Assembly (NCBI GenBank): GCA_028713655.1
Contig: JAQTNW010000002.1
Coordinates: 76,627 to 140,626, forward strand
Direction of reading: 5' to 3'
DNA: 64,000 bases
Source of the DNA: Candidatus Methylacidiphilales bacterium
Lineage (GTDB): Bacteria > Verrucomicrobiota > Verrucomicrobiia > Methylacidiphilales > JAAUTS01
Notes under the pieces: model-generated
The model's input: only the letters and a program-made list of their open reading frames with translations
Told to the model about the DNA's origin: nothing
The model's database searches: none
Shown here: one piece after another, positions 46,003 to 59,951 of the stretch
How positions within the stretch are numbered: the stretch's first letter is position 1
Layout: every line of letters begins with the position of its first letter
Position numbers and translations under genes: made by a program

Positions 46003-46947
46003 TCAAAAGTTCCCGGGTGAATTTTGAGAATAAATCCGGCCGACGATCTGCGCGGCTATCAGGTCCAGCCTTTTTAATGCCCACAGCCATCCCGGGAAAA
46101 GACGGATGGGAGCCGTCACATAATTCCAATACTGCCGTTCGGCGCGCGTGGGTGTCAGACGCGAAAACAAGGCGCGGAAGAAGGAGAACATGCGCCACGG
46201 CTTGGGTTCGTTGATGGCATGCGACATGATGTAACCCCGGATTTCAAAATCCATGGCGTCCCGGCCCGCCCAGCTCAAGGACAGCTTGGTCGCCATGCAG
46301 GCCATGTTCATGGCATCCTGATACGGATGCTGGAAAGGATTGTCCCGGTCGCCGAAGCACATGGTGTGGTGGTTGCTTAAGCCGGTTTTCAGTTTGCTGA
46401 CAATGGATTCCCACGTGTCCAGGATTTCCATGCAATCGCGGCGGATGCCAATGAAGCCGGCGTTAAAATGGGCCCTCAGACGTTGTTGCGGAGTGTAACC
46501 CCAGTCGGTCAGGACCTGTTCCCATCCCAAACGTATCGGATGGGTTTCCGGCATGCAGGTAACGTCCTCGCAAAGGGCGATTCCATGGGCGGCCCACTCC
46601 TCGAAAAAACTCCAGCGGCATTTGACCACAATATCCGGGTCGAAATAAAAGGCCGCTTCGGCGCCGGGTTCCAATTCGAGCAGGACTTTGCGCAACCAGG
46701 CGGGCTTTTGCGCCGAATAATGATGGGGTGGATTTTCCTCAAAAAAGCAGACTGTTAGTCCCTCGGCCGGCGAATAGTCCCAACCGTGCGCACCGCGCTT
46801 TGCGTTGCGCGCCCAAAAAGGCAGTTCCCCACCGCGGTAACCCGCCCAAATCGTTCCGCGATAGCCGTGGAGATACAGCGAGTTCACCAGGGCGCCGACC
46901 CCATAATGGTGGTGGCCTTCGAACAGGGTGCAAATGGTTCCGCGCAT
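46003..46947 (-). CDS. Putative glycosyltransferase (paralogue of the gene at 51005)
   Basis: A 314-residue soluble protein, about half identical by eye to the protein at 51005-51946. Shared blocks are CTLFEG-HYGVGAL-NSLYLHGYRG, GELPFWAR, YFDPDIV (a DxD-like motif), LCED, FNAGFIGI and the C-terminal PKPW...P-R-YW-V-P-RLFP. The layout of an N-terminal Rossmann half plus DxD resembles GT-A retaining transferases such as GT8, but I do not recognise a named family. The start is set at 46947 by comparison with the paralogue; a longer frame begins at 46974. It heads the polysaccharide run. Confidence 0.7.
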   Translation of the reverse strand: MRGTICTLFEGHHHYGVGALVNSLYLHGYRGTIWAGYRGGELPFWARNAKRGAHGWDYSPAEGLTVCFFEENPPHHYSAQKPAWLRKVLLELEPGAEAAFYFDPDIVVKCRWSFFEEWAAHGIALCEDVTCMPETHPIRLGWEQVLTDWGYTPQQRLRAHFNAGFIGIRRDCMEILDTWESIVSKLKTGLSNHHTMCFGDRDNPFQHPYQDAMNMACMATKLSLSWAGRDAMDFEIRGYIMSHAINEPKPWRMFSFFRALFSRLTPTRAERQYWNYVTAPIRLFPGWLWALKRLDLIAAQIVGRIYSQNSPGNF

Positions 46948-47009
46948 GGCATGGCAATTTATGCCAGCATCCATGCCAGGTCAAATTCATGTTGTGGGGA
47001 AGGGGTGAG

Positions 47010-47138
47010 GATGTGAACGTTTGCGGCAATGATTTCCGCCTCATTATGGCCATCCATTATAACCGGGGTATTATTTATAAGCTGCAATTTCTGACGCATG
47101 TCGAATGCGGCAAAGACAAATGGAAAAAGGAATTATGA
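47010..47138 (+). pseudogene. higB: Truncated HigB-type toxin remnant
   Basis: The reading frame ending at 47138 carries DVNVCGNDFRLIMAIHYNRG and then IIYKLQFLTHVECGKD. That is the C-terminal half of the HigB family (typical form FNVGGN-RLV-I-Y---YI-FV-THAEYD). The frame continues upstream, but nothing there resembles the HigB N-terminus, about 55 residues are missing, and the sequence runs into the promoter side of the glycosyltransferase gene. Its stop overlaps the higA ATG by four bases, the normal higBA arrangement. It is therefore a decapitated toxin gene. Confidence 0.7.
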
Positions 47139-47551
47139 AGACCAAATTTATTTTTAAAGACTTACCCGGGGATTACCGGGGATTGCTTGCCCTCTACATG
47201 CTTCGCCCGATCCATGACAAGGTGGATTACTCCAACGCACTGGAAATTCTCGATGCGATGGCCGGCCAGGCATTGAGCCCGGACCAAGACGACTACTTTG
47301 AGGCGCTTGCCTTGCTGGTGGAGGCTTACGAATCCTCGCATCTTCCAAGGCTGCCTTGCAAAAGGGGCTTGCCTCTTCTCAAACATCTCATTGAAGAAAA
47401 CAAAATGACGGCCGCAGACTTGCCCCGTCTTTTGGGCGCCGACCGCAGCCTCGGCGTCAGAATCCTGAATAAAGAAAGGAATCTGACCATCGAGCACATT
47501 AAAAAGCTGGCGGCCCGGTTTCAAGTGCCGATGGGATTATTTCTTGCGTGA
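47135..47551 (+). CDS. higA: HigA-type antitoxin (XRE-family HTH)
   Basis: A 138-residue antitoxin of the COG5499 group. The N-terminal half has the family pattern (YMLRPIHDKVDYSNALEILD, DDYFEALALLVEAYESSH). The C-terminal helix-turn-helix runs KHLIEENKMTAADLPRLLGA and LGVRILNKERNLTIEHIKKL. HigA binds its toxin and represses its own operon. The ATG at 47135 overlaps the stop of the higB remnant and has an AAGGAA ribosome site. With no intact toxin beside it, it is an orphan that could still act as a repressor or protect against related toxins. Confidence 0.88.
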   Translation: MKTKFIFKDLPGDYRGLLALYMLRPIHDKVDYSNALEILDAMAGQALSPDQDDYFEALALLVEAYESSHLPRLPCKRGLPLLKHLIEENKMTAADLPRLLGADRSLGVRILNKERNLTIEHIKKLAARFQVPMGLFLA

Positions 47552-47656: not shown

Positions 47657-47782
47657 ACAACCGAAGCCCCCGCCTCGGATTATGAAGTCACCTATGCGTA
47701 CGATAACGCCGGGCGCCTGGGTACCGTATTTCTTGCCCAGAATTTCCCCATGAACCCAAGCTCGGCCCTAGCATATGGGTAG
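47657..47782 (+). pseudogene. RHS/YD-repeat gene fragment
   Basis: A short open stretch reads SDYEVTYAYDNAGRLGTVF before a stop at 47780-47782. YEVTYAYDNAGRL is the YD-repeat signature of RHS proteins. It has no start and is bounded upstream by an in-frame stop at 47654, so only about 40 codons survive. It shows that an RHS-type gene, often a polymorphic toxin, once lay here. The surrounding 276-bp gap also holds a gaatggggtgaatgggtcaa piece related to 50877. Confidence 0.6.
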
Positions 47783-47827: not shown

Positions 47828-50800
47828 ATGAAAACGAATTCCGTAGCGCTGTACCCGCTGGCATTAATCATTTCCGTGTTGCTTGCCACCTCCCCTCCGG
47901 CAGTCGCCCAAACCGTTGCAGATTTGGGTGAGGGACAGAATTTTACAATTTTGGGTGGATCAGCAGTCACAAATACCGGAATCACAGTCGTAAATGGCAA
48001 TTTAGGGGTGAGTCCTGGCAGTTCCATTTCCGGATTTCCGCCAGGCACGGTGATCAACGGGGCTATTTATAATAATGTCGCACCGGCCACCACGGCTCAT
48101 GCCGATACGATTACGGCTTACAATTTACTGGCTGGCGTGGCAATGACAGCAAACCTGACCACGCTGGATCTGGGTGGTATGACGCTCGCCCCCGGAGTTT
48201 ACAAATTCAACAGCACAGCCGGGCTGACGGGGACGCTCACGCTTAATAATGTTGGAAATCAAAATGGTACGTACGTTTTTCAGGTTGGCTCCGGTCTGAC
48301 AACGGCTCCCAGTTCGGCAGTGGTATTGCTTGGCGGTTCGGACCCCAACATATTCTGGCAGATCGGCAGTTCAGCCACCCTGGGTACCGCGACCGTATTT
48401 GAAGGAAATATTGTAGCCAACACAAGCATTACCCTGGACCCCGGGGCCAGCATCGCAGTTGGAAGGGCCCTGGCGATCAATGGAGCTGTCACGATGGCTG
48501 GCGGTAATTCAGCCAACCTTAATGCATTGGCGCTTCCCCTGGTTTCAGTCGGCGCTTATTGGAATGGCACCACAAGCGCCAATTGGTCGGAGGCGAACTG
48601 GTCGCCCACCGTCATCGGTGGAGCCTCCACGACACTCACTCCCCTGGCGGATGTTGTTTTTTCAGTAAACGCCATACCTGCCGTCCAACCGTTGAATGAA
48701 AATACCATCCTCGATTACAATGCCAATATTTCAAGTCTTACGGTCAATGACCCAGTGCCGGTGACAATTAGCAGTCCAATACTTGGTCCCTTATCCACCC
48801 TCACGATCACCGGTGCAGCCGGTGCGGGCAGTACTGTTACGATTAGCAATGGAGCCGGCCTGACGACAATCAACAGCGATCTTGTTCTCGGCGGTTTGTC
48901 TCAGGGAATTAATGTCAGCAACTCGGCCGGTTTGGTGATTAATGGCGCAGTCAATGGGGCGATGGGACTGACAAAAGCGGGAAGCGGTGTGCTGACCCTG
49001 AATGGAGCCAACACTTATACTGGCGGCACAAATATCAACGCGGGATCGCTCGCCGTGGGCAGCGCCGGCGCACTTGGTGCGGGCAGTGTCACAAATTCAG
49101 CCACACTGGAAACAACGGCGGCATTGAGCGCGGTCGCGCCGCGTGCGATTCATGTAAATGGCTCGTTTGTCCAGAATGGAACCGGCACCCTGCTGCTGCA
49201 AGTGGCCAATTCACCGTTGCCAACGCCGTCGATGAACACCGGTATTGCGGGGACTGACTATGATACCCTCGTGGTGACCGGCACGGCATTGCCGGGAGGT
49301 GCACTGGATCTGAACTTTAAAGCCGGCACTGTTCCCAGCCAGGGACAACGGTATGTTGCAGTTACCGCCGGAGCCCCGGTGATGTCGCAGTTTATCTCAC
49401 CAACCACAACCAATCTTCCGGCGTCGTTTTACACAGTTACAACATATAATGACACGTTTGGAGGATCGCAGCCGATTGATAGTGTGATTGTCACCCTGCT
49501 CAAGCCCTTTGCTTTGTCTCCCGGATTGACGCCGAATCAAACCAGCGTGGGTAATAATATTGACAACAATCTTGCACTTCTCGGCAACGGCGGCTCGATG
49601 GGAACGCCAACGGGTGCCGCAGCAGACTTTTTCAACAACATCGTTACGGGGTTGAATATCTCGTCCAACGCGAATGGCTCACTTGGGCCGGCATTGAATG
49701 AACTCTCACCGCAGCGCTTTCAAATCCTGCGCAATATCGCTTTCGACAACTATGCGTTTGAGGTCCAAAGCTTGGATAACGAATTGGCCCGCGAGCGGAA
49801 TGGCCAGGGCGGGTTTGACATGTCCGGCTTTGTGTTTAATGACAGGACACTTGGAGCGCAGCTGTCATCCATCAAGAGCCGTCTGTACGCATGGAATCCC
49901 CCCCCTTCCGCCCCCGGCTTGTTGAGCGATTCCAACCAGACCATGCTGGCCGGCGCGACGATATCTGAAGACAAGGACCTCAATGCGATCGGATATCACG
50001 CACAAGCACCCATTCGTGAGCCCTTGAACAAATGGAACGGATTCATTGATGGCGGCGCCGAGCTGGGCGATCTCGATCATAATGTTGACGTTAGCCACTC
50101 TTCCTACACCACGGGCCGTGCCCGTATTGGAGTAGATTATCGCGTCGCAACAAATCTTCGAGTGGGCGCACTCTTCGGATTCAGCCATACGGACGCAGAC
50201 CTGGATTACGAAGGCAGCAAAGCAAAGGTCGATAGCTATACGCCGGGTCTCTATCTGGCCTATGCGGACAAACAAGGGTTCTATGCAAACGGCTTGTTCA
50301 CCTACACGCGCAATGAATACAGCACGGATCGCAGGATTGTCATCCCCGGCGTCGATCGTACCGCGAACGGCTCAACGGGCGGCGACCAATTCGGAGCCAA
50401 TCTATCCGGCGGCTATGAATTTCACAGGAACAACTGGACATTCGGACCCGCCGTCGGCTTGACCTATGTAAATCTCGGGATCAACAGTTTTAATGAAACT
50501 GGCGCCGGCGCGGCGAACTTGAGTGTTAACAACCAGTCGGACGATTCACTCCGCAGCCGCCTGGGCGGAACCGTGCGCTATCAGGACAAGATCGGTTCGG
50601 TTGTTATAGTCCCACACCTGAGCGCCTTCTGGCAGCATGAGTTTCTTGACGAGTCCAAACTTATCACCAGTCAATTTGAAGGATTACCGGCTGGCACGTT
50701 CTCCGTTCAGACCGTCAAAGGTGATAGTGATAACGCTTTACTGGGGGCTGGAATCGATGTTGAAGTGACAGATAGGGTCACATTGTTTATCGATTATCAA

Positions 50801-50866
50801 GCAGAAGCAGGCGGTTCCACTTTCCTTGGGCAATCAGCCACCGGTGGCGTAAAGGTCAGTTTCTAA
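47828..50866 (+). CDS. Autotransporter with an ice-binding (DUF3494) passenger domain
   Basis: A 1012-residue exported adhesin-like protein. Residues 1-27 are a signal peptide ending AVAQ. Residues about 30-235 match the ice-binding DUF3494 beta-solenoid along its length: NFTILGGSAVTNTG, GNLGVSPGSSISGFPPGTV, DLGGMTLAPGVYKFNSTAGL, NGTYVFQVGSGLTTA, NIFWQIGSSATLGTATVFEG, and AINGAVTMAGGNSA. An autotransporter-associated repeat follows (GLTKAGSGVLTLNGANTYTG, about 379-410). After a long beta-rich linker, a C-terminal 12-strand-type barrel (about 733-1012) ends in VSF. The passenger should therefore be displayed on the cell surface. Ice-binding proteins prevent recrystallisation or anchor cells to ice; some DUF3494 domains may bind other ligands. 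Confidence 0.88.
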   Translation: MKTNSVALYPLALIISVLLATSPPAVAQTVADLGEGQNFTILGGSAVTNTGITVVNGNLGVSPGSSISGFPPGTVINGAIYNNVAPATTAHADTITAYNLLAGVAMTANLTTLDLGGMTLAPGVYKFNSTAGLTGTLTLNNVGNQNGTYVFQVGSGLTTAPSSAVVLLGGSDPNIFWQIGSSATLGTATVFEGNIVANTSITLDPGASIAVGRALAINGAVTMAGGNSANLNALALPLVSVGAYWNGTTSANWSEANWSPTVIGGASTTLTPLADVVFSVNAIPAVQPLNENTILDYNANISSLTVNDPVPVTISSPILGPLSTLTITGAAGAGSTVTISNGAGLTTINSDLVLGGLSQGINVSNSAGLVINGAVNGAMGLTKAGSGVLTLNGANTYTGGTNINAGSLAVGSAGALGAGSVTNSATLETTAALSAVAPRAIHVNGSFVQNGTGTLLLQVANSPLPTPSMNTGIAGTDYDTLVVTGTALPGGALDLNFKAGTVPSQGQRYVAVTAGAPVMSQFISPTTTNLPASFYTVTTYNDTFGGSQPIDSVIVTLLKPFALSPGLTPNQTSVGNNIDNNLALLGNGGSMGTPTGAAADFFNNIVTGLNISSNANGSLGPALNELSPQRFQILRNIAFDNYAFEVQSLDNELARERNGQGGFDMSGFVFNDRTLGAQLSSIKSRLYAWNPPPSAPGLLSDSNQTMLAGATISEDKDLNAIGYHAQAPIREPLNKWNGFIDGGAELGDLDHNVDVSHSSYTTGRARIGVDYRVATNLRVGALFGFSHTDADLDYEGSKAKVDSYTPGLYLAYADKQGFYANGLFTYTRNEYSTDRRIVIPGVDRTANGSTGGDQFGANLSGGYEFHRNNWTFGPAVGLTYVNLGINSFNETGAGAANLSVNNQSDDSLRSRLGGTVRYQDKIGSVVIVPHLSAFWQHEFLDESKLITSQFEGLPAGTFSVQTVKGDSDNALLGAGIDVEVTDRVTLFIDYQAEAGGSTFLGQSATGGVKVSF

Positions 50867-50876
50867 CTCCGCAATG

Positions 50877-50938
50877 TGAATGGGGTCAACTCCGATAGTC
50901 ATCGCGAGTGAACTCCGACATTCGTCGCGAGCGGGTTT
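50877..50938. repeat. Dispersed repeats downstream of the autotransporter
   Basis: tgaatggggtcaactcc (50877-50893) echoes gaatggggtgaatgggtcaa at about 47613, on the other side of the autotransporter gene. aactccgacattcgtcgcga (50911-50930) is a third copy of the block at 17291 and 21690. The 138-bp gap holds no gene. Confidence 0.5.
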
Positions 50939-51004: not shown

Positions 51005-51946
51005 TCAAAGATTATTGGGGGGCCGATGGCGGAAAATCCTGGCAATCAAACGGGCCAGAAAGAGGTCCGCCTTCTTTAAAAGCATTTTCCAACGGGGATA
51101 AAGCCTTACAGGGGTACAAACATGCTGCCAGTAACTCCCTTGGGCCCGGGTCGGGGCCTTTCCTTGCAGGCAATACAGAGCGTAACGGATCTCCCAGGGC
51201 TTTGGCATGCCGATTGCGTGAAACATCATGGGTTTGCCGGTTTTAAAACTCATCCCGTCCGGACCAGCCGCGGAAAGGGCACAGTCTGAAATCATAAGGG
51301 CCACGTTGAGCGCATCCTGATCCGCCATCTGGAATGGATTGGTTCTGTCGCCATAGCTCAGGTGCTCGCGGTCCGGGTGCTGTTCCTGAATCAAAAAAAT
51401 GAGCTTTTCCCAAAGCGATAAAAATCCGGCGTCCTCGCGTTTGATGCCGATGAATCCCGAGTTGAGATAAAAATCAAGATCGCGGAAGGAGGTATAACCC
51501 CGGGAACGAGCGTGGGATTTCCATTGGAGCCGCAACGGATGGGAAGCGCCGATGTTTGTCAGGTCCTCGCAAAGCGGAATCCCGAAGCGGATCCAATTTT
51601 CAAAAAAATCCCAGGAGCGGTGGATAACGATGTCCGGATCAAAATAATAAACCGCCGCGGCTTCAGTGTCGTATTCCTGCAATACGCGCAGCATCAGTTC
51701 CGGTTTATGGTGGGAAAGATGGCAGCCGGGGTTTTCCCGGCAAAAACAGAGCGTCAGGCCGGCTGCGGGCGAAAACTCCAGTCCATGAACGCCGGGGCTT
51801 GCGGCGCGCGCCCAAAACGGCAGATCGCCGCCGCGCCAGCCGATCCAAAACGTTCCCCGGTACCCATGAAGATAAAGGGAATTGAGCAGCGCGCCGACGC
51901 CATAATGGTAATCGCCCTCGAACAGGGTGCAGGCTGTTGCGCGCAT
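51005..51946 (-). CDS. Putative glycosyltransferase (paralogue of the gene at 46003)
   Basis: A 313-residue protein matching the 46003 product from end to end: MRATACTLFEGDYHYGVGAL, LYLHGYRGTFWIGWRGGDLP, YYFDPDIVIHRSWDFFENWI, IPLCEDLTNIG and LNSGFIGIKRED. Like its paralogue it has the DxD-type YFDPDI and no membrane segment. The two lie on the same strand, separated by the higA/RHS/autotransporter block, and so look like a tandem duplication later split by insertions. It may act on the polysaccharide or possibly on the adjacent autotransporter; neither is shown. Confidence 0.7.
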   Translation of the reverse strand: MRATACTLFEGDYHYGVGALLNSLYLHGYRGTFWIGWRGGDLPFWARAASPGVHGLEFSPAAGLTLCFCRENPGCHLSHHKPELMLRVLQEYDTEAAAVYYFDPDIVIHRSWDFFENWIRFGIPLCEDLTNIGASHPLRLQWKSHARSRGYTSFRDLDFYLNSGFIGIKREDAGFLSLWEKLIFLIQEQHPDREHLSYGDRTNPFQMADQDALNVALMISDCALSAAGPDGMSFKTGKPMMFHAIGMPKPWEIRYALYCLQGKAPTRAQGSYWQHVCTPVRLYPRWKMLLKKADLFLARLIARIFRHRPPNNL

Positions 51947-52740: not shown

Positions 52741-52852
52741 ATATTCATTCCACAAAAGCGCCGGATTTTTGATTTTGAAAACCATAGGCACAACCTTTCC
52801 GCCAGCCGCCGGCCATCTTGACAAGCGACACTCCGAGTGTCATTTTCAAATT

Positions 52853-53116
52853 ATGAAGCTGAAGACGGTTTCCATGCTGGAATTGCGTTCCCGGGGGCGG
52901 GACGTGGTCAGGCGCCTCGAACGGGGGGAGAAACTGGCGCTGACCTACAGGGGGAAACGGGTGGCGACCCTGGTGCCCGAATGTTCCGGAAAGAACCGCC
53001 CGATTCCCGCTGACGATCCGATCTATCGTTTTGTGGAAAGCGCGGAACCGATGGGCTCCATGACCAACGAACAAATCGATCAGCTCCTCTATGGAAAGCC
53101 GTCGGATCTTCGTTGA
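52853..53116 (+). CDS. Phd/YefM-type antitoxin
   Basis: An 87-residue protein. KLKTVSMLELRSRGRDVVRR and LERGEKLALTYRGKRVATLV form the Phd/YefM N-terminal DNA-binding fold. The C-terminal half (DPIYRFVESAEPMGSMTNEQ) is the flexible toxin-wrapping part. It overlaps the PIN-domain toxin gene by 26 bases, the normal order for this kind of module, and probably represses the pair. The ATG at 52853 begins the fold; longer upstream frames overlap ssb and are rejected. Confidence 0.88.
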   Translation: MKLKTVSMLELRSRGRDVVRRLERGEKLALTYRGKRVATLVPECSGKNRPIPADDPIYRFVESAEPMGSMTNEQIDQLLYGKPSDLR

Positions 53117-53501
53117 TACCCACGGATTTTACGTCTGGGCCGATACGGCGGACCCAATGCATGAGCGGGCGGCCTCCCTGCTTCGCCCGATTCAACGGAG
53201 GTTTATTACAACCGAATGGATTCTTATTGAAACGGTGAACCTTTTTGTTGCCAGGCGCAAGGCGCATTGGGCTGCGGAATTGCTCGATTTTGTCGCCCAC
53301 ACCTCAGCCCTTCAAATCGTTCCTGCGGCATCCGAGCAGTTTCAATCCGCCTGCCGTCTTTGGGAGGCATATCGCGATCATGCATTCCCCTTGACCGACT
53401 GCACGTCGTTCGTGGTGATGCGCGAGTTCCGGCTCAAGGATGCCCTGACGGCGGACGGGCATTTTCGCGTGATGGGTTTCAACCCGATGCTTGCCGATTA
53501 G
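53091..53501 (+). CDS. PIN-domain ribonuclease toxin (VapC-like)
   Basis: A 136-residue PIN-domain RNase. The acidic active-site residues are in order: RIFVDTHGFYVWAD (D9), ITTEWILIETVNL (the conserved Glu), FPLTDCTSFVVM and the late Asp of TADGHF. VapC toxins cleave tRNA or rRNA when released from the antitoxin. It is translationally coupled to the Phd-type gene. The module ends 55 bp before the second 59-bp repeat. Confidence 0.92.
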   Translation: MESRRIFVDTHGFYVWADTADPMHERAASLLRPIQRRFITTEWILIETVNLFVARRKAHWAAELLDFVAHTSALQIVPAASEQFQSACRLWEAYRDHAFPLTDCTSFVVMREFRLKDALTADGHFRVMGFNPMLAD

Positions 53502-53555: not shown

Positions 53556-53614
53556 ATTTGTAACACCAACTTGATATGTACGAAACATGGGCTTGATAGA
53601 AATGGCCCGTGACT
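53556..53614. repeat. 59-bp direct repeat, copy 2
   Basis: Second copy of the block at 52124-52182, in the same orientation and 1432 bp away. The only differences are three substitutions (c to a in the hairpin loop, tt to cc near the end). It contains the GTG used as the start of the first Verru_Chthon cassette gene. The two copies enclose ssb, the antitoxin and the toxin. Confidence 0.9.
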
Positions 53615-54286
53615 CGATTTAAGAGCTGCGGCAATAAACGGCTAAGGGGTGGGTTTTCGCTTTTGGAAACGATGGGGGTTCTGACGGGCGTTCTCATGCT
53701 TGCTTCGGTCTCACTGCCGGCTGTGAACAGCCTGGCCAATCAGACTGCCCGCGTGGGAGCGGCCAATCTCTTGCTGGAAGCCTTCGAGCAGGCGCGGGTG
53801 TCTGCGCTGAGCAATGGAACGAACGCCTACATCGGGTTCGCGAATGAAAACCTTTTTCCCGAGCGCGATTCAGAATACCCGTATCGCGCGTTCGTTATTT
53901 TTCGCGATAGAAAGGACAGCGACCCTGGCAGTGGGCAGTTTGTTCCTCTCAGCCGCTGGCAATTTTTGCCAAAGAACATTTCATTCAAGCGCGAGCGCTT
54001 TTCAATTGTTGGCGCTCCGCCTGCGGGCGTCCCGTATGCCTTGGCGCTCAGCGACATGTCGATTCCCAGACTAAAAACCGGAGACCGGGTGCCGGTTGTG
54101 GTCTTTGGCCCAAATGGAAGCATTCAAAATCCGAGCCAGCCCAACGAATTGCGCCTGTTTCTGTATCAAGGCTTCTTTTCAAATGGGCGGGACAATCTTG
54201 CATCGCGAAGTACCGGATGGTTTGAACGCGTCACCCTTCAGCGCAGTACCGGGCGGGCGCAACTGGATGTGACAACCACCGAGTAA
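53609..54286 (+). CDS. Verru_Chthon cassette protein D (prepilin-like)
   Basis: A 225-residue pseudopilin-like protein. The N-terminus RLRGGFSLLETMGVLTGVLM is a class III prepilin signal with cleavage after G15, F16 at +1 and E20 at +5, followed by a hydrophobic helix. The rest is beta-rich (AYIGFANENLF, YRAFVIFRDRKD, SRWQFLPKNISF). Length, order and neighbours fit protein D of the four-gene cassette first described in Chthoniobacter and Verrucomicrobium. Function is unknown, presumably assembly of a pseudopilus. The GTG start lies within the 59-bp repeat and lacks a ribosome site, so the true start is uncertain. Confidence 0.8.
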   Translation: MTRFKSCGNKRLRGGFSLLETMGVLTGVLMLASVSLPAVNSLANQTARVGAANLLLEAFEQARVSALSNGTNAYIGFANENLFPERDSEYPYRAFVIFRDRKDSDPGSGQFVPLSRWQFLPKNISFKRERFSIVGAPPAGVPYALALSDMSIPRLKTGDRVPVVVFGPNGSIQNPSQPNELRLFLYQGFFSNGRDNLASRSTGWFERVTLQRSTGRAQLDVTTTE

Positions 54287-54287
54287 C

Positions 54288-54839
54288 ATGACTCATTCAA
54301 CCTTGCTTTCTGTAGTGCGACTCCGAAAGGGATTCTGCCTGGTTGAAATTGTCCTGGCACTCGCGGTTCTCGCCTTGGCTCTCACGGGCATTCTGGCTCT
54401 TTTCCCGGTGGCGCTCGGCGCCGCGGCAGACAGTGGGAGTGAAACTCATGCCGCCTTGATTGCACAGTCGCTCGTCTCGGAAATCAGGGCCGGGAGAGGG
54501 AGTCGGCGCGTTATTTATTCGAACATTCAGACAAGCCCGCGGGAGCCGCTGGGTTCCGGAAAAAATTCAACCATAATGCTGGACTTAAAAAAGTCGGGCG
54601 ATTGCGACAGGCATTGCCTGGTATTTGACGGCGATGGAGGCCCTGCGGGTGAAATCGGCCCGGAAGCTTATAACAAAGGCGATTCGACCGGTTCATATAT
54701 TGTGGTGGTTAAGGCTGCCTACAAGCCGCCACCGCAGAACATCACACAGCTTGGTATAAACATCGAATGGCCCGCAGGCGCCAGGGCCAGCTGCCGCAAG
54801 AGGCAGGCTTTCGTTACATGGATTGCTCCGGATGTATGA
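54288..54839 (+). CDS. Verru_Chthon cassette protein B (prepilin-like)
   Basis: A 183-residue protein with the prepilin signal RKGFCLVEIVLALAVLALAL (cleavage after G15, E20 at +5) and the following LFPVALGAAADSGSETHAAL segment typical of protein B. It starts two bases after the D gene. Its stop overlaps the C gene ATG by four bases, so D, B and C are surely one operon. The C-terminal half has no recognisable motif. It probably goes to the same pseudopilus-like structure. Confidence 0.82.
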   Translation: MTHSTLLSVVRLRKGFCLVEIVLALAVLALALTGILALFPVALGAAADSGSETHAALIAQSLVSEIRAGRGSRRVIYSNIQTSPREPLGSGKNSTIMLDLKKSGDCDRHCLVFDGDGGPAGEIGPEAYNKGDSTGSYIVVVKAAYKPPPQNITQLGINIEWPAGARASCRKRQAFVTWIAPDV

Positions 54840-55669
54840 ATATGCGACTCCAAGAGGGTGGCGCGGTGATTTATGCACAGATAGGGATGGGCGGGTTGAA
54901 TCGGAATGAGGGCTTCACACTTGTCGAGTTTCTTGTTTCGACCGCGGCCTTTTGCATCCTAATGCTGCTTTTGCTTTCATTTTTTAACCAGGCGACGTCC
55001 GCATGGCAGAACTCGGAGAAAAAAACAGATGCGTTTCGCGAAGCAAGGGCCGCATTCCATTATATCCGGAGCGACCTGCAGAACATTACTGTCACGGAGC
55101 AAATACCGCTTTATACCGGATCTCAGGCTGAACTTGTTGCAGTTGGTGGAAATTATGCGGCGCAAAGCAATTCCGACAAAATCTTTTTTCTTTGCAAAGC
55201 GCCCCGCGCCGGACAGGTCGTCGGCGGGAACAAAAGCGATCTGTGCGCCACGGGCTATTACGTTGCTTATACACGCTGCGGAATCAGCGGAGGCGCGTAC
55301 AACCTGCACCGCTATTTCAAAAGCAGTGATGAAACCTGGGGTGCAAATTCGCCTGCGCCGGGAGCCGGCCTGCAACCCTACCTGACAAACCGGTCCAATC
55401 CGCTATTCATGCCCGCTGCAGCCACCCGGGATGGGGATGAGATACTTGCGCGCAATGTGACGGATTTTATCATTCGCCCCTGCCGCAGCGATTTCAGTTC
55501 CCCTTCAATTTGGCCTGCTTTTGAAAGGCCCGCCTTCTTTGATGTCAGCCTTCGGGCCTTCAATTACAGCACCGCAAAGAAATTTCAAGGCTCCGAGGAT
55601 TGGACGCGCAACACAATGCTCAGAATGCAAAATTCAAGGTTGTTCCGGATGCGGGTGAGCACGAACTAA
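54836..55669 (+). CDS. Verru_Chthon cassette protein C (prepilin-like)
   Basis: A 277-residue protein with the prepilin signal NRNEGFTLVEFLVSTAAFCI (cleavage after G26, E31 at +5 from the start used here). The mature part has WQNSEKKTDAFREARAAFHY and IRSDLQNITV, features of protein C and of GspJ-like minor pseudopilins. I place the start at the ATGA overlap with the B gene (54836). A later ATG at 54887 would give a more usual nine-residue leader. It is 32 bp from the A gene. Confidence 0.82.
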   Translation: MNMRLQEGGAVIYAQIGMGGLNRNEGFTLVEFLVSTAAFCILMLLLLSFFNQATSAWQNSEKKTDAFREARAAFHYIRSDLQNITVTEQIPLYTGSQAELVAVGGNYAAQSNSDKIFFLCKAPRAGQVVGGNKSDLCATGYYVAYTRCGISGGAYNLHRYFKSSDETWGANSPAPGAGLQPYLTNRSNPLFMPAAATRDGDEILARNVTDFIIRPCRSDFSSPSIWPAFERPAFFDVSLRAFNYSTAKKFQGSEDWTRNTMLRMQNSRLFRMRVSTN

Positions 55670-55701
55670 ACCGGAATATTTTGACCACAAAGAACATAGA
55701 T

Positions 55702-58398
55702 ATGAAGAAAAGCTTTGCGCTCATCAGCACATTGTTGCTGCTTGCCATACTTACGATCATGGCACTGGCCTTTATGCAGTCGATGCGCCTCAATCACCTG
55801 ACAGCACGGGCTTATCTTTATAAGGCCAGGGCCGATCTGGCGGCGCAGGGCGCCTTGGATGAAGCCAGGGAAAGGATCGTGCGCGCCGCAAGTGATCCGA
55901 TTTCAAGCCATGTGGACCGCACATTTACAACGGAACTGGAACCCGCCCCGGACGGATTCCAGGGCCTGTCGCCCTTGGTTACAATCTGCCGTTATTCAAA
56001 AACCTCCGGGAGCGAAGAACTTCATCGCGCATGCCTGCCCCTTGTTTCCACTTCAGTTGCCGACGCGTCATTTAAGGACAATTTTGCCAACGCTTGGGCC
56101 GGTCTGTATCAGGCGCGGGAAGACACCGCAACATCGGACGATTTGAATAAATCGGGAATGATCCAGTGTCCCGATCCGGTAACTGGAGCGCCAAAGCCGG
56201 GGTATTTCCGCGTTGAATTGTTGGATTTAAAGGACGGGACCGGCAAGGCCTTGGCCCGCTATGGATATCAAGTCTTTGATGAACAGGCCCGCCTTAATCC
56301 CGTTTTTCATCATTCCAAGGCGCGTAAGTCCACTGGAGGTGCGGCGGAGGAAATTGCCCTGTCGCTGGGCAATTCCGTTTTACTGGCCCCTTCGGAATTG
56401 AGCCGTTACAAGGCCGCGCCCGCGCTTCCCGCGAGTCCCTATGCCATTGGGCAGTTTCTGGACAGCACTGAGCGGGTGGATGTAATCCGGCATCTGTTTG
56501 GTTATTATACGACTCCAGATGAAGATGTGATTCCTGCGGGATTGCCGGACGCTGGAAAACCCAAATATAACATCAATGAGCTTGCCACCAATCCGGTGTA
56601 TGGTTCAACCGCAACGGAACGGGCGGAACATATCGCGGCAATCATCGATCGGAATCTTCCTTATTTCAAATGCCGGGACCCCAGCTTGGCAGGCGAAACA
56701 GACGCGCTCAAAAGGCGATATCTCAACCGCCTCGCGGCAGGCATCGTGGATTATATCGATGCCGATACGGACATTACCACGGTCAACGGCGGAGAGCCGG
56801 CGGGACGTGATTTATTTCCTCTAGTTACCTGTGTGGCGGAACAATTTTACTGCGGGCCGGAAACCGATGCGGATGGATTCTATCATGCCGTCATCCAATC
56901 CCGCTTTTTTGCCCAAATTTGGAACCCTTACACCGCTGCAGCCACTGGTTCAGCCCGGCTGGTTGCGCGCAATCGCATGCGCATCCATTACGGAACCGCC
57001 ATTGTAACACCGTTGGAGGACTACGAGCCGGCGGTTCAGACTAACATTATCGTCCGTCCCAATGAGTTTGTTGTGGTGGCCTTCCCCTGGGTAAGCCAGA
57101 CATTCAGCAGCCCCACCGGTCCCAACATTTCGACTGCCAGCCGCCCGCACTGGGACTATTCGCCCGCCGATACCGCCGACCAAACCACGCATTTGCCATT
57201 CGAGTTTGAATGGAACGGGCAAAGGGTGGATATGAACCGGCGCCTGCCAGTTTCACCCGGCCTGGCCAATGCGGGAATGGATCGCAACAGCAAAACGTTG
57301 AGCTATGGCGTCACTCACTATCAGGTGTGCGGTATTCCAACGCCGTCAGCTCCCGTCGGCTCGGATTACAGGGCGGTTGGAGATCCGCGTTTCACGTATC
57401 TTAGTAATTATGATTGGAGCTCGCTCAGCGCATCTGACACGTACGCAAATGAGACGCGCTGGAAGGGCCGGAACCGGGATTTACCCCCTTTTACGCAGAA
57501 TTTTGCCAGTACCTGGCAGCAGCGGGATTATGTGCGGGCCAATCCTGCGGAGGGAAACGCCCCAGGCAGCATCAATATGGCGCCTGACTGTGTCCCGTCT
57601 GCTTATTCGGAAGCCACGGATGCCGCGAACGCGCCATTCTACATCCGGAACGGCAATATGCAGTCGCCCGGTGAACTGGGAAATATATTCGATCCGGCAC
57701 AGGCAGACAGCACGGGCGCAGCCCCATCGGGAGGCAAGCCTCCCGGCATTTTTGTCGCCGGTGGCGGAAGAACGCTTCGGATCGGGCAGCCTGAGTTTTC
57801 ATACTGGGATTCACCGGGACGGCGGGCCATGGAACTGCTGGACCTCTTTACTGCAAACCCCATCAACACGGGAACAGGTTACAGTGAAATGTCAGGTAGA
57901 ATCAACATCAATACCGCGCCACGGGAAGCGTTGGAAGCGCTTTTCTGCGGCTTGCGCATCGAATCGGATGGGGGCCTGCATGGGAATGTGGAATCCAAAA
58001 TAAGCAAGATCACCGCGGACGGGGCGTTAACCCTCTCCAGTGCCATTATTGCAGAAAGGGGAAAGAACGGGGCATTTCGAAAACTTTCGGATTTGTACCG
58101 GATTTTGCCGGTACTGAACCGGGCCGACAGCTATGATCCCCCGCTGGGGAACGGGCCGGGAAAGCAAGCCCCACTGGCAATGGACCGCGCCAGGGAGGAG
58201 TGCTTTGGAAAAATATGCAACCTAGTGGCGACACAATCGCGCAGTTACCGGATTGTGGCAACAGGCCAGGCTTTGGATCCGGCGGGGAGAACATGCGCCC
58301 AGACTTTTATCGAAGCGATAGTGAGCCTGCGGCTTGCCAGCGATTCTAGTGGAGGCATCAATTGCAAACCTGAAATAATCTATGAGCGGAGCTACTGA
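55702..58398 (+). CDS. Verru_Chthon cassette protein A
   Basis: An 898-residue protein, the large member of the cassette. The N-terminus MKKSFALISTLLLLAILTIM is PilX-like and hydrophobic, followed by RAYLYKARADLAAQGALDEA, a pattern shared with PilX/GspK proteins whose N-terminal helix packs in a pilus tip. Long beta-rich regions follow. A conserved-looking late section has MELLDLFTANP, GRININTAPREALEALFCGL and RGKNGAFRKLSDLYRILPVL; the NINTAPREAL part resembles the GspK helix-hairpin-helix segment. The ATG at 55702 is used. It would cap or organise a pseudopilus made of D, B and C. Confidence 0.82.
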   Translation: MKKSFALISTLLLLAILTIMALAFMQSMRLNHLTARAYLYKARADLAAQGALDEARERIVRAASDPISSHVDRTFTTELEPAPDGFQGLSPLVTICRYSKTSGSEELHRACLPLVSTSVADASFKDNFANAWAGLYQAREDTATSDDLNKSGMIQCPDPVTGAPKPGYFRVELLDLKDGTGKALARYGYQVFDEQARLNPVFHHSKARKSTGGAAEEIALSLGNSVLLAPSELSRYKAAPALPASPYAIGQFLDSTERVDVIRHLFGYYTTPDEDVIPAGLPDAGKPKYNINELATNPVYGSTATERAEHIAAIIDRNLPYFKCRDPSLAGETDALKRRYLNRLAAGIVDYIDADTDITTVNGGEPAGRDLFPLVTCVAEQFYCGPETDADGFYHAVIQSRFFAQIWNPYTAAATGSARLVARNRMRIHYGTAIVTPLEDYEPAVQTNIIVRPNEFVVVAFPWVSQTFSSPTGPNISTASRPHWDYSPADTADQTTHLPFEFEWNGQRVDMNRRLPVSPGLANAGMDRNSKTLSYGVTHYQVCGIPTPSAPVGSDYRAVGDPRFTYLSNYDWSSLSASDTYANETRWKGRNRDLPPFTQNFASTWQQRDYVRANPAEGNAPGSINMAPDCVPSAYSEATDAANAPFYIRNGNMQSPGELGNIFDPAQADSTGAAPSGGKPPGIFVAGGGRTLRIGQPEFSYWDSPGRRAMELLDLFTANPINTGTGYSEMSGRININTAPREALEALFCGLRIESDGGLHGNVESKISKITADGALTLSSAIIAERGKNGAFRKLSDLYRILPVLNRADSYDPPLGNGPGKQAPLAMDRAREECFGKICNLVATQSRSYRIVATGQALDPAGRTCAQTFIEAIVSLRLASDSSGGINCKPEIIYERSY

Positions 58399-59188
58399 CT
58401 TTTTTGCGGCGTTTGTCCTTTTGATTCTGGGTACTCCAATCCAGGGGTCATTGTTTGGGGAAGAGCAGGTGAGCGCGGGGGGCAAGACTTCCGAACAGAA
58501 AACGGAGATGAGTGTCCAGATTGTGAATGCGACCTGTGTTCCGGAAATTGCGGTGTGGATCAACAATCAACCGGCTTATCCCCGGTTTCCGAGAGGGCTT
58601 TGCACGTCTGACGCCCCGGTTCCCTATCTGAAGGCTGAATATAAAATCCGGGATTTAAAATCAGGACGGGAAGCCGTGCAGACCCTGGAATTGGAAAACG
58701 GCAGCAGCCAAACCCTGCTCCTGCTGGGTGATTTTAAGGTGCCGCGGCGCAACGGAGATTATTTGGAATCGCTTGAAGAGGCAAAAATGGAGAACGGGAA
58801 AAAGCGGCCGAATGTGGCATTTATGGTCTTGCCTCATGCATTGAAGAAAGGGGAGAAATTGTTGCGCTATCGTGTCGTGAATGGAATGCCTGGGCAAACG
58901 CTGGAACTGTTGCTGGACAAGGGCGCGCAACACATCCCTGTGGCGCCCGGCGGCCTTTACACTCTGGAGCGCCAGCCCCCTGTGGCGACGCTAGACATTG
59001 AAGTCGGAGGCAGTCCGCTCCCAGTCCTGATTAATCAGGAGCGCCATTTTCGGAACTGCACGATTGTATTTTATAAGACGGAGCAAGGTCCCTCCTTTGT
59101 GCGGGTATTTGAAAACACCGGGAAAAGCCACAGGAACCAGGAAAGCGGGGACGAAACAGCCTTGCTGCCTTTATCCAACATTCCTTAA
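58382..59188 (+). CDS. Secreted protein of unknown function, fifth gene of the cassette operon
   Basis: A 268-residue protein overlapping the A gene by 17 bases. The N-terminus (ATDFFAAFVLLILGTPIQGS) can serve as a signal peptide. The body is predicted mainly beta (LLLLGDFKVPRRNGDY, KRPNVAFMVLPHALKKGEKL, GGLYTLERQPPVATLDIEVG, FRNCTIVFYKTEQ). I do not recognise a family. Similar uncharacterised genes of this size often follow cassette protein A in Verrucomicrobia, as I recall, so it may be a periplasmic partner. Confidence 0.65.
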   Translation: MSGATDFFAAFVLLILGTPIQGSLFGEEQVSAGGKTSEQKTEMSVQIVNATCVPEIAVWINNQPAYPRFPRGLCTSDAPVPYLKAEYKIRDLKSGREAVQTLELENGSSQTLLLLGDFKVPRRNGDYLESLEEAKMENGKKRPNVAFMVLPHALKKGEKLLRYRVVNGMPGQTLELLLDKGAQHIPVAPGGLYTLERQPPVATLDIEVGGSPLPVLINQERHFRNCTIVFYKTEQGPSFVRVFENTGKSHRNQESGDETALLPLSNIP

Positions 59189-59288
59189 CGAACATGTTAC
59201 ATGGTCGAGCTAATTTCGTAACAAGCGCCGAATACATTTCCATTCAACAGTTGCCAGGAATCAGCCCGGCAATAAAAAAGGATTGTTT

Positions 59289-59951
59289 ATGAGAAAGATG
59301 TGGATATTGAGTGTCTTGACAGGCTTGATCTGCGCCGCGCAATTGAACGGGCAGATTATATTCAGCGAAAATATGGGGACGCCAACCGGAACGACCTCCA
59401 TTTCCGCCAACGTATTTCAAAATTCGTCGTTCGGATTCTCCGGAACGGGGGATGTGAGAAGCACAACCACCTCGGGCGGTTACATTGGAGCCTCGGGAAA
59501 TGGCAACATCTTCCTGACTGCAGGCAGTAATGCGAATTTTGTGATATCAGGGATCGACACCCTTGGTTATGCAAGCGGTTCTCTGGATCTTTCCTTTGGC
59601 GCCTACAAGTCGGCCATTGCATCGAGCATGTCGGAACTGGTTCTGGAGTACAGCAACAACGGCGGGAGCTATGTTTCCCTGGCCTTGCCCGCGCAGGCGA
59701 CCGGTGCGGGAACCGCCAATTGGCGTTTGATTGACCTGATCGATACGGCTCTCCCCGTTACATCCAATCTCTCATTGCGCTGGACCAATACCGCGGCATT
59801 GGGCGGTGTGCAATTCCGCCTGGACGATGTCATGCTTTCCGGGACCAGCGCGGTGCCGGAACCTTCCAGTTTTGCCCTTTTATTTTTGGGCCTCGGCGGA
59901 CTGTGTTTTTTGCGAGGACGCGTCTTAAAATGCTATCAAGTTAAAATTTGA
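59289..59951 (+). CDS. PEP-CTERM sorting-domain protein
   Basis: A 220-residue secreted protein. A signal peptide (MRKMWILSVLTGLICAAQLN) is followed by a beta-rich Ser/Gly/Asn-rich domain with lectin-like strands (FSFGAYKS-type, LVLEYSNNGGSYVSLAL, WRLIDLIDTALP, NLSLRWTN, FRLDDVMLSG). The C-terminus has the PEP-CTERM tripartite tail: VPEPSSFALLFLGLGGLCFL and a basic end. Exosortase should recognise VPEP and process it at the cell surface, often with exopolysaccharide. No exosortase gene lies in the window. An AAGGAT ribosome site precedes the ATG at 59289. Confidence 0.9.
   Translation: MRKMWILSVLTGLICAAQLNGQIIFSENMGTPTGTTSISANVFQNSSFGFSGTGDVRSTTTSGGYIGASGNGNIFLTAGSNANFVISGIDTLGYASGSLDLSFGAYKSAIASSMSELVLEYSNNGGSYVSLALPAQATGAGTANWRLIDLIDTALPVTSNLSLRWTNTAALGGVQFRLDDVMLSGTSAVPEPSSFALLFLGLGGLCFLRGRVLKCYQVKI

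Follow-up and report, generated by a model that had tools for sequence, protein, structure and literature searches.

An ice-binding domain, a predicted stalk and an autotransporter barrel are joined in a single protein of 1012 amino acids encoded in the window (the whole 64,000-nucleotide stretch of DNA analysed here), and the protein is probably a type Va (classical) autotransporter carrying a passenger that is predicted to be a surface-displayed ice-binding adhesin. The architecture is real, well supported and largely uncharacterised, and it already appears in a published table. What is new here is a set of at least 15 fusions of an ice-binding protein (IBP) domain to an autotransporter (AT), all found in Verrucomicrobiota; more interesting than the architecture itself is that anchors have been exchanged recurrently. 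The features of the gene are as follows.

47828..50866, plus strand: whole gene, 1012-amino-acid DUF3494-PATR-autotransporter protein (ATG start, Pfam, NCBIfam)
47828..47911, plus strand: signal-peptide-like N-terminus, residues 1-28 (MKTNSVALYPLALIISVLLATSPPAVAQ), recognised by eye from a basic N-region, a hydrophobic core and AVAQ
47915..48523, plus strand: DUF3494 head, residues 30-232, beta-solenoid with a long helix at 85-102 (PF11999, AF2, Foldseek)
48212..48493, plus strand: predicted B-face ice-binding ladder, 15 positions (strand register read from the AF2 head model)
48530..49507, plus strand: stalk, residues 235-560, predicted beta-helix from about 300 (AF2 strand ladder, moderate confidence)
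48968..49057, plus strand: PATR passenger-associated transport repeat, residues 381-410 (PF12951, TIGR02601)
49532..49801, plus strand: alpha-helical region ahead of the barrel, residues 569-658 (AF2, low to moderate confidence)
50033..50863, plus strand: autotransporter beta-barrel, residues 736-1012, about 12 strands, C-terminal Phe (PF03797, Foldseek)

Three domains in one reading frame

A Pfam scan of the protein returned exactly three domains, each above its cut-off: PF11999 (Ice_binding) at residues 41-224 (E 3.3e-50; 171 bits against a cut-off of 28.7), PF12951 (PATR) at residues 381-410 (E 4.3e-11) and PF03797 (Autotransporter) at residues 742-991 (E 2.6e-62). The NCBIfam matches, TIGR01414 and TIGR02601 (E 5.2e-11, in the PATR region), were concordant. 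An earlier note on this DNA had read a DUF3494 domain at the N-terminal end, a barrel at the C-terminus and an autotransporter-associated repeat between them; all three are borne out, the two terminal domains at scores far beyond chance. When the PDB was searched by sequence, the nearest solved structure to the head was the ice-binding protein 6EIO (E 1.3e-42), and the nearest to the barrel were EstA (3KVN) and AaaA (9OQA). RTX calcium-binding repeats, Ig-like extender repeats and the PEP-CTERM motif (PF07589) were all absent from the window protein in the Pfam scan. The source genome holds 11 PEP-CTERM matches and 5 exosortase matches, yet a barrel is used on this protein.

Only one PF11999 gene, the window gene, was found in the source genome, a draft of 90 contigs that is 95% complete. 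Two further PF03797 genes lie above the cut-off there, a relative cut by a contig end (locus L191) and a 1094-amino-acid frame. The barrel of the former (G000:C11) is 48% identical to that of the window protein, and its head, which falls outside the contig, may be another ice-binding domain or some different passenger.

Fold of the head, stalk and barrel

Modelled alone with 60 homologues, the head reached a pLDDT of 96.0 and a pTM of 0.92 in AlphaFold2 (AF2). Foldseek superposed this model on 6EIO (TMq 0.93) and 7BWY (TMq 0.94) with an rmsd of 1.3-1.5 Å, and all of its matches to the head with E < 0.001 (31/31) were structures of ice-binding or antifreeze proteins. The solenoid plus alpha-helix architecture that the earlier note expected of the passenger head is therefore what the model has.

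The full-length model rests on an alignment of 8 rows, and its overall confidence is modest (pLDDT 64.8). In it the helix-braced head is followed by the strand ladder of the stalk, a helical segment (569-658) and barrel strands (736-1011), and in Foldseek the model matched 7BWY among the ice-binding proteins (TMt 0.94) as well as NalP among the autotransporter barrels (TMt 0.74). Residues 9-19 at the N-terminus are predicted as a helix at low confidence, much of residues 232-298 is of low confidence, and the strand ladder at 300-560 is of moderate confidence. The helices ahead of the barrel span residues 569-586, 601-611 and 628-658, and the barrel itself matched those of NalP, EstA, EspP and BrkA. 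The host genome carries one BamA-type (Omp85) gene (E 3e-65, an 807-amino-acid frame).

The predicted ice-binding face

We mapped the B-face from the DSSP strings of the modelled strands, without coordinates, so that its register is inferred. In this register, column 1 reads S129/S155/S181/T199/G219, column 2 reads T130/G156/S182/S200/A220 and column 4 reads G132/T158/T184/T202/T222. Each of the 15 mapped positions holds T, S, A or G, and charged residues are absent from them; elsewhere in the domain T/S/A/G make up 44%. Positions of AnpIBP were placed with the structure pair 7BWX and 7BWY, which differ at S153; in the alignment, S181 and T184 of the window protein correspond to S153 and T156 of AnpIBP. 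The B-face substitutions S153Y and T156Y brought the thermal hysteresis of AnpIBP down to 17%, and a change on the A-face had no such effect (PMC7277481). Thus, as modelled, the window head keeps an intact, flat, uncharged Thr/Ser B-face. DUF3494 heads without a barrel fusion typically show this pattern too (88% on average), and because it is about equally common across DUF3494 heads, it indicates an intact face and is not proof of ice binding. One study (PMC12337378) linked an all-alanine column 2 to polar marine and glacier ice, and a column 2 of S/T/G/A to frozen sediment, rock and subsurface, possibly with weaker activity. Column 2 of the window head is not all-alanine and is closer to the second of these, the pattern of frozen sediment, rock and subsurface.

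The fusion recurs in Verrucomicrobiota

We built profiles for the head and the barrel and ran them over the fetched loci (numbers beginning with G and L denote genomes and loci), and in at least 15 distinct proteins both profiles fell within the same frame. The carriers are the window genome, G033, G048, G147, G321, G176, G121, G167, G186 (two proteins), G158 and G096, together with a Chthoniobacter (L048), a Prosthecobacter (L049), a member of Verrucomicrobiaceae (L051) and one of Chthoniobacterales (L073). The order of head, middle region and barrel is kept in at least 15 Verrucomicrobiota proteins, and PATR was also present in 5 of the 7 relatives scanned with Pfam. The closest homologues, of 1250 and 1259 amino acids in G033 and G048 (same order as the window genome), have the same three domains at 65-67% identity. 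All fusions found lie in Verrucomicrobiota, Pseudomonadota being outside the survey. In a phylum sample of 388 genomes, PF11999 exceeded its cut-off in 32, and of the 16 PF11999-matching members of the window's class 6 had the fusion; no barrel was found on the long DUF3494 frames retrieved from outside that class.

Two further loci deserve mention. An Akkermansiaceae DUF3494-PATR-barrel gene (L053:5785-9054) is split over three frames, reflecting either an assembly frameshift or decay. A 4724-amino-acid open frame in G045:C118 (L181) has a much longer passenger, and the barrel and stalk at its end are 50% identical to residues 335-1012 of the window protein.

Anchors have been exchanged repeatedly

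One relative carries a different C-terminus. The G334 protein (L040:5347-7140, minus strand) is an IBP-PATR protein 52% identical to the window protein over residues 9-450, and it ends without a barrel in a PEP-CTERM-like motif (20.3 bits, just below the cut-off of 20.7). As judged from sequence, PEP-CTERM-like tails in place of the barrel on related heads are another envelope-linked fate.

We counted state changes on a tree of 55 heads and on a tree of 42 barrels; in both, gains and losses are not separable, and in the head tree rows cut by contig ends were left uncounted. The AT-linked heads needed 9 state changes, at least 6 of them forced by starred branches, and a single clade of such heads was rejected (AU p 4.8e-6). 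The IBP-linked barrels needed 6 changes, at least 5 of them forced, and a single clade was again rejected (AU p 1e-88). The barrels of the window protein, G033 and G048 form a clade (98/86) whose sister (99/98) is G048:C3, an autotransporter without a DUF3494 head. The heads of G147 and G321 are the next closest to that of the window protein, yet their barrels fall in another clade.

Simple vertical descent from one fusion event was rejected, since one clade fails for heads and for barrels alike. Related heads with PEP-CTERM tails, and closest barrels with other heads, indicate that anchors have been exchanged repeatedly, and the split relationships of barrels and heads together with the tail swap in G334 indicate that heads, stalks and anchors have recombined. 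A tentative reading, which we regard as possible and somewhat short of an even chance, is that Verrucomicrobiota repeatedly swap the anchor of one ice-binding head between a barrel and a PEP-CTERM/exosortase tail, so that a lineage moves the same ice-binding surface between outer-membrane display and sorting to the matrix or envelope; on this reading the window protein would be a type of outer-membrane ice adhesin that has yet to be characterised.

Genomic neighbourhood

A polysaccharide export locus does lie on the minus strand near the gene, with genes for an ABC-2 transporter, a Wzt-like ATPase, a glycosyltransferase, a sulfotransferase and an O-antigen ligase. From this proximity the earlier note took an ice- or surface-attachment role to be plausible, but a functional link to the locus found no support: the ice-binding gene is on the opposite, plus strand, it is flanked by a pair of minus-strand paralogues without a Pfam family, one on each side (46003-46974 and 51005-51946), which share 48% identity over 314 amino acids, and the neighbourhood is not seen in the two closest relatives, G033 and G048, where the genes beside the homologue differ from those in the window. 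We see the ice-binding gene as a later insertion into the polysaccharide locus, with no shared operon. Its GC3 is 0.575 against about 0.59-0.73 in its neighbours; a strong recent transfer was not upheld, the lower GC3 being a weak hint only.

Several other elements were observed around the gene. Upstream on the plus strand, and still between the two paralogues, are a lone 148-amino-acid protein (47105-47551), whose C-terminus bears a weak HTH of the Cro/C1 or HigA type and beside which no toxin partner was seen, and, just before the gene, an intergenic RHS-repeat-like remnant (47666-47779; SDYEVTYAYDNAGRLG; Pfam RHS_repeat E 0.011, below the cut-off). Downstream, GAATGGGGTCAACTC at 50878-50892 occurs elsewhere as well, with 11 copies in the genome when one mismatch is allowed and 0 in a reversed control, and is a possible dispersed repeat. 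Further along the plus strand, a weak Phd/YefM-like antitoxin followed by a PIN-domain protein (about 52847-53501) is a probable toxin-antitoxin pair, and the stretch at 53609-59951 holds a run of pseudopilin-like genes (N_methyl motif, weak T2SSK) and, after them, a PEP-CTERM protein at 59283-59951.

Proposed mode of action and alternatives

The DUF3494 head, the PATR stalk and the autotransporter barrel in one chain make display on the cell, as the earlier note proposed, probable. Export of the protein, its retention on the cell, ice binding and a physiological role are what we infer for it. Sec would export the protein, and BAM would insert the C-terminal barrel into the outer membrane. The barrel would then serve as the channel through which the passenger is drawn, the PATR beta-helix aiding its folding on the outside, and the stalk would carry the DUF3494 head at its far end, the flat Thr/Ser B-face open to the surroundings. 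The passenger most likely stays attached, in which case the cell might cling to ice, or restrain the growth of ice beside its envelope. The setting would be a seasonally frozen habitat.

What the head binds is a separate matter. It is conceivable, though we consider it unlikely, that the displayed fold is a general adhesin for a non-ice ligand (a polysaccharide, a mineral surface or other cells) and that ice binding is weak or absent. DUF3494 is widespread in lineages not tied to ice, with Streptomyces, Chloroflexota and Acidobacteriota among the closest relatives, PMC12337378 terms the family both ice-binding and substrate-binding, and the polysaccharide export locus is near the gene. Among solved structures, however, the head's closest relatives are genuine ice-binding proteins, and the uncharged ladder is kept, including both residues important in AnpIBP, which argues for an ice-binding head. 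Whether such a head stays on the cell bears on another alternative, in which the autotransporter is a secretion route only and cleavage of the passenger sets free a soluble ice-binding protein. Many type Va autotransporters do release their passenger, and a helical segment stands ahead of the barrel; but head and stalk form one chain with a long predicted beta-helix stalk and the Pfam scan found no protease domain in the window protein, so that we think release improbable, slightly more so than a non-ice ligand. That two unrelated genes were joined by chance or by the assembly, a thought raised by the draft of 90 contigs, can be dismissed, because the frame is single and uninterrupted and homologues in other genomes keep the architecture, in G033 and G048 at the high identity given above and in a dozen others at lower identity.

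Relation to known systems

The combination of head and barrel is not unrecorded, for the fusion recurs across Verrucomicrobiota and a 2023 Arctic metagenome survey (PMC9957290) already has it in Table 1, in the row pfam11999_pfam03797 (Autotransporter beta-domain, secretion, 24.83 RPKM). Like the window protein, that entry has both domains in one protein, from Arctic Ocean metagenomes; unlike it, the entry is, in the available portions of the survey, a table row only, without sequence, host, stalk or structure. In those portions "autotransporter" appears only in that row and the Discussion is silent on the fusion. Ice-tethering was judged there by a signal peptide plus a transmembrane domain, and little evidence of membrane-anchored tethering was reported; with this criterion a C-terminal barrel would probably be missed. 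The accessible text of PMC8286594 lists PF11999 among the adhesive domains and PF03797 among the anchors of fibrillar adhesins and does not state that the two are joined.

EfcIBP (6EIO) and AnpIBP (7BWX/7BWY) share the fold of the window head, with about 46% and 40% identity over it and conserved B-face residues, but they are single-domain secreted proteins, whereas the window domain is the head of an autotransporter. EstA, NalP, BrkA and EspP, all type Va, share the barrel fold and its C-terminal position, but their passengers are not ice-binding domains. The G334 protein has the same head and stalk, with the PEP-CTERM-like motif replacing the barrel, and the recurring fusion offers a set of natural head-anchor swaps for probing the role of tethering. 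MpAFP of Marinomonas primoryensis likewise extends an ice-binding head from a Gram-negative cell; as described in the available parts of PMC5014055 and PMC4083281, this RTX-type adhesin has a mass of 1.5 MDa and about 120 Ig-like repeats, whereas the window protein has a type Va barrel and a short PATR stalk as its carrier. If display by the autotransporter is true, it would give a Gram-negative cell a compact ice-binding surface, far simpler than the Marinomonas adhesin.
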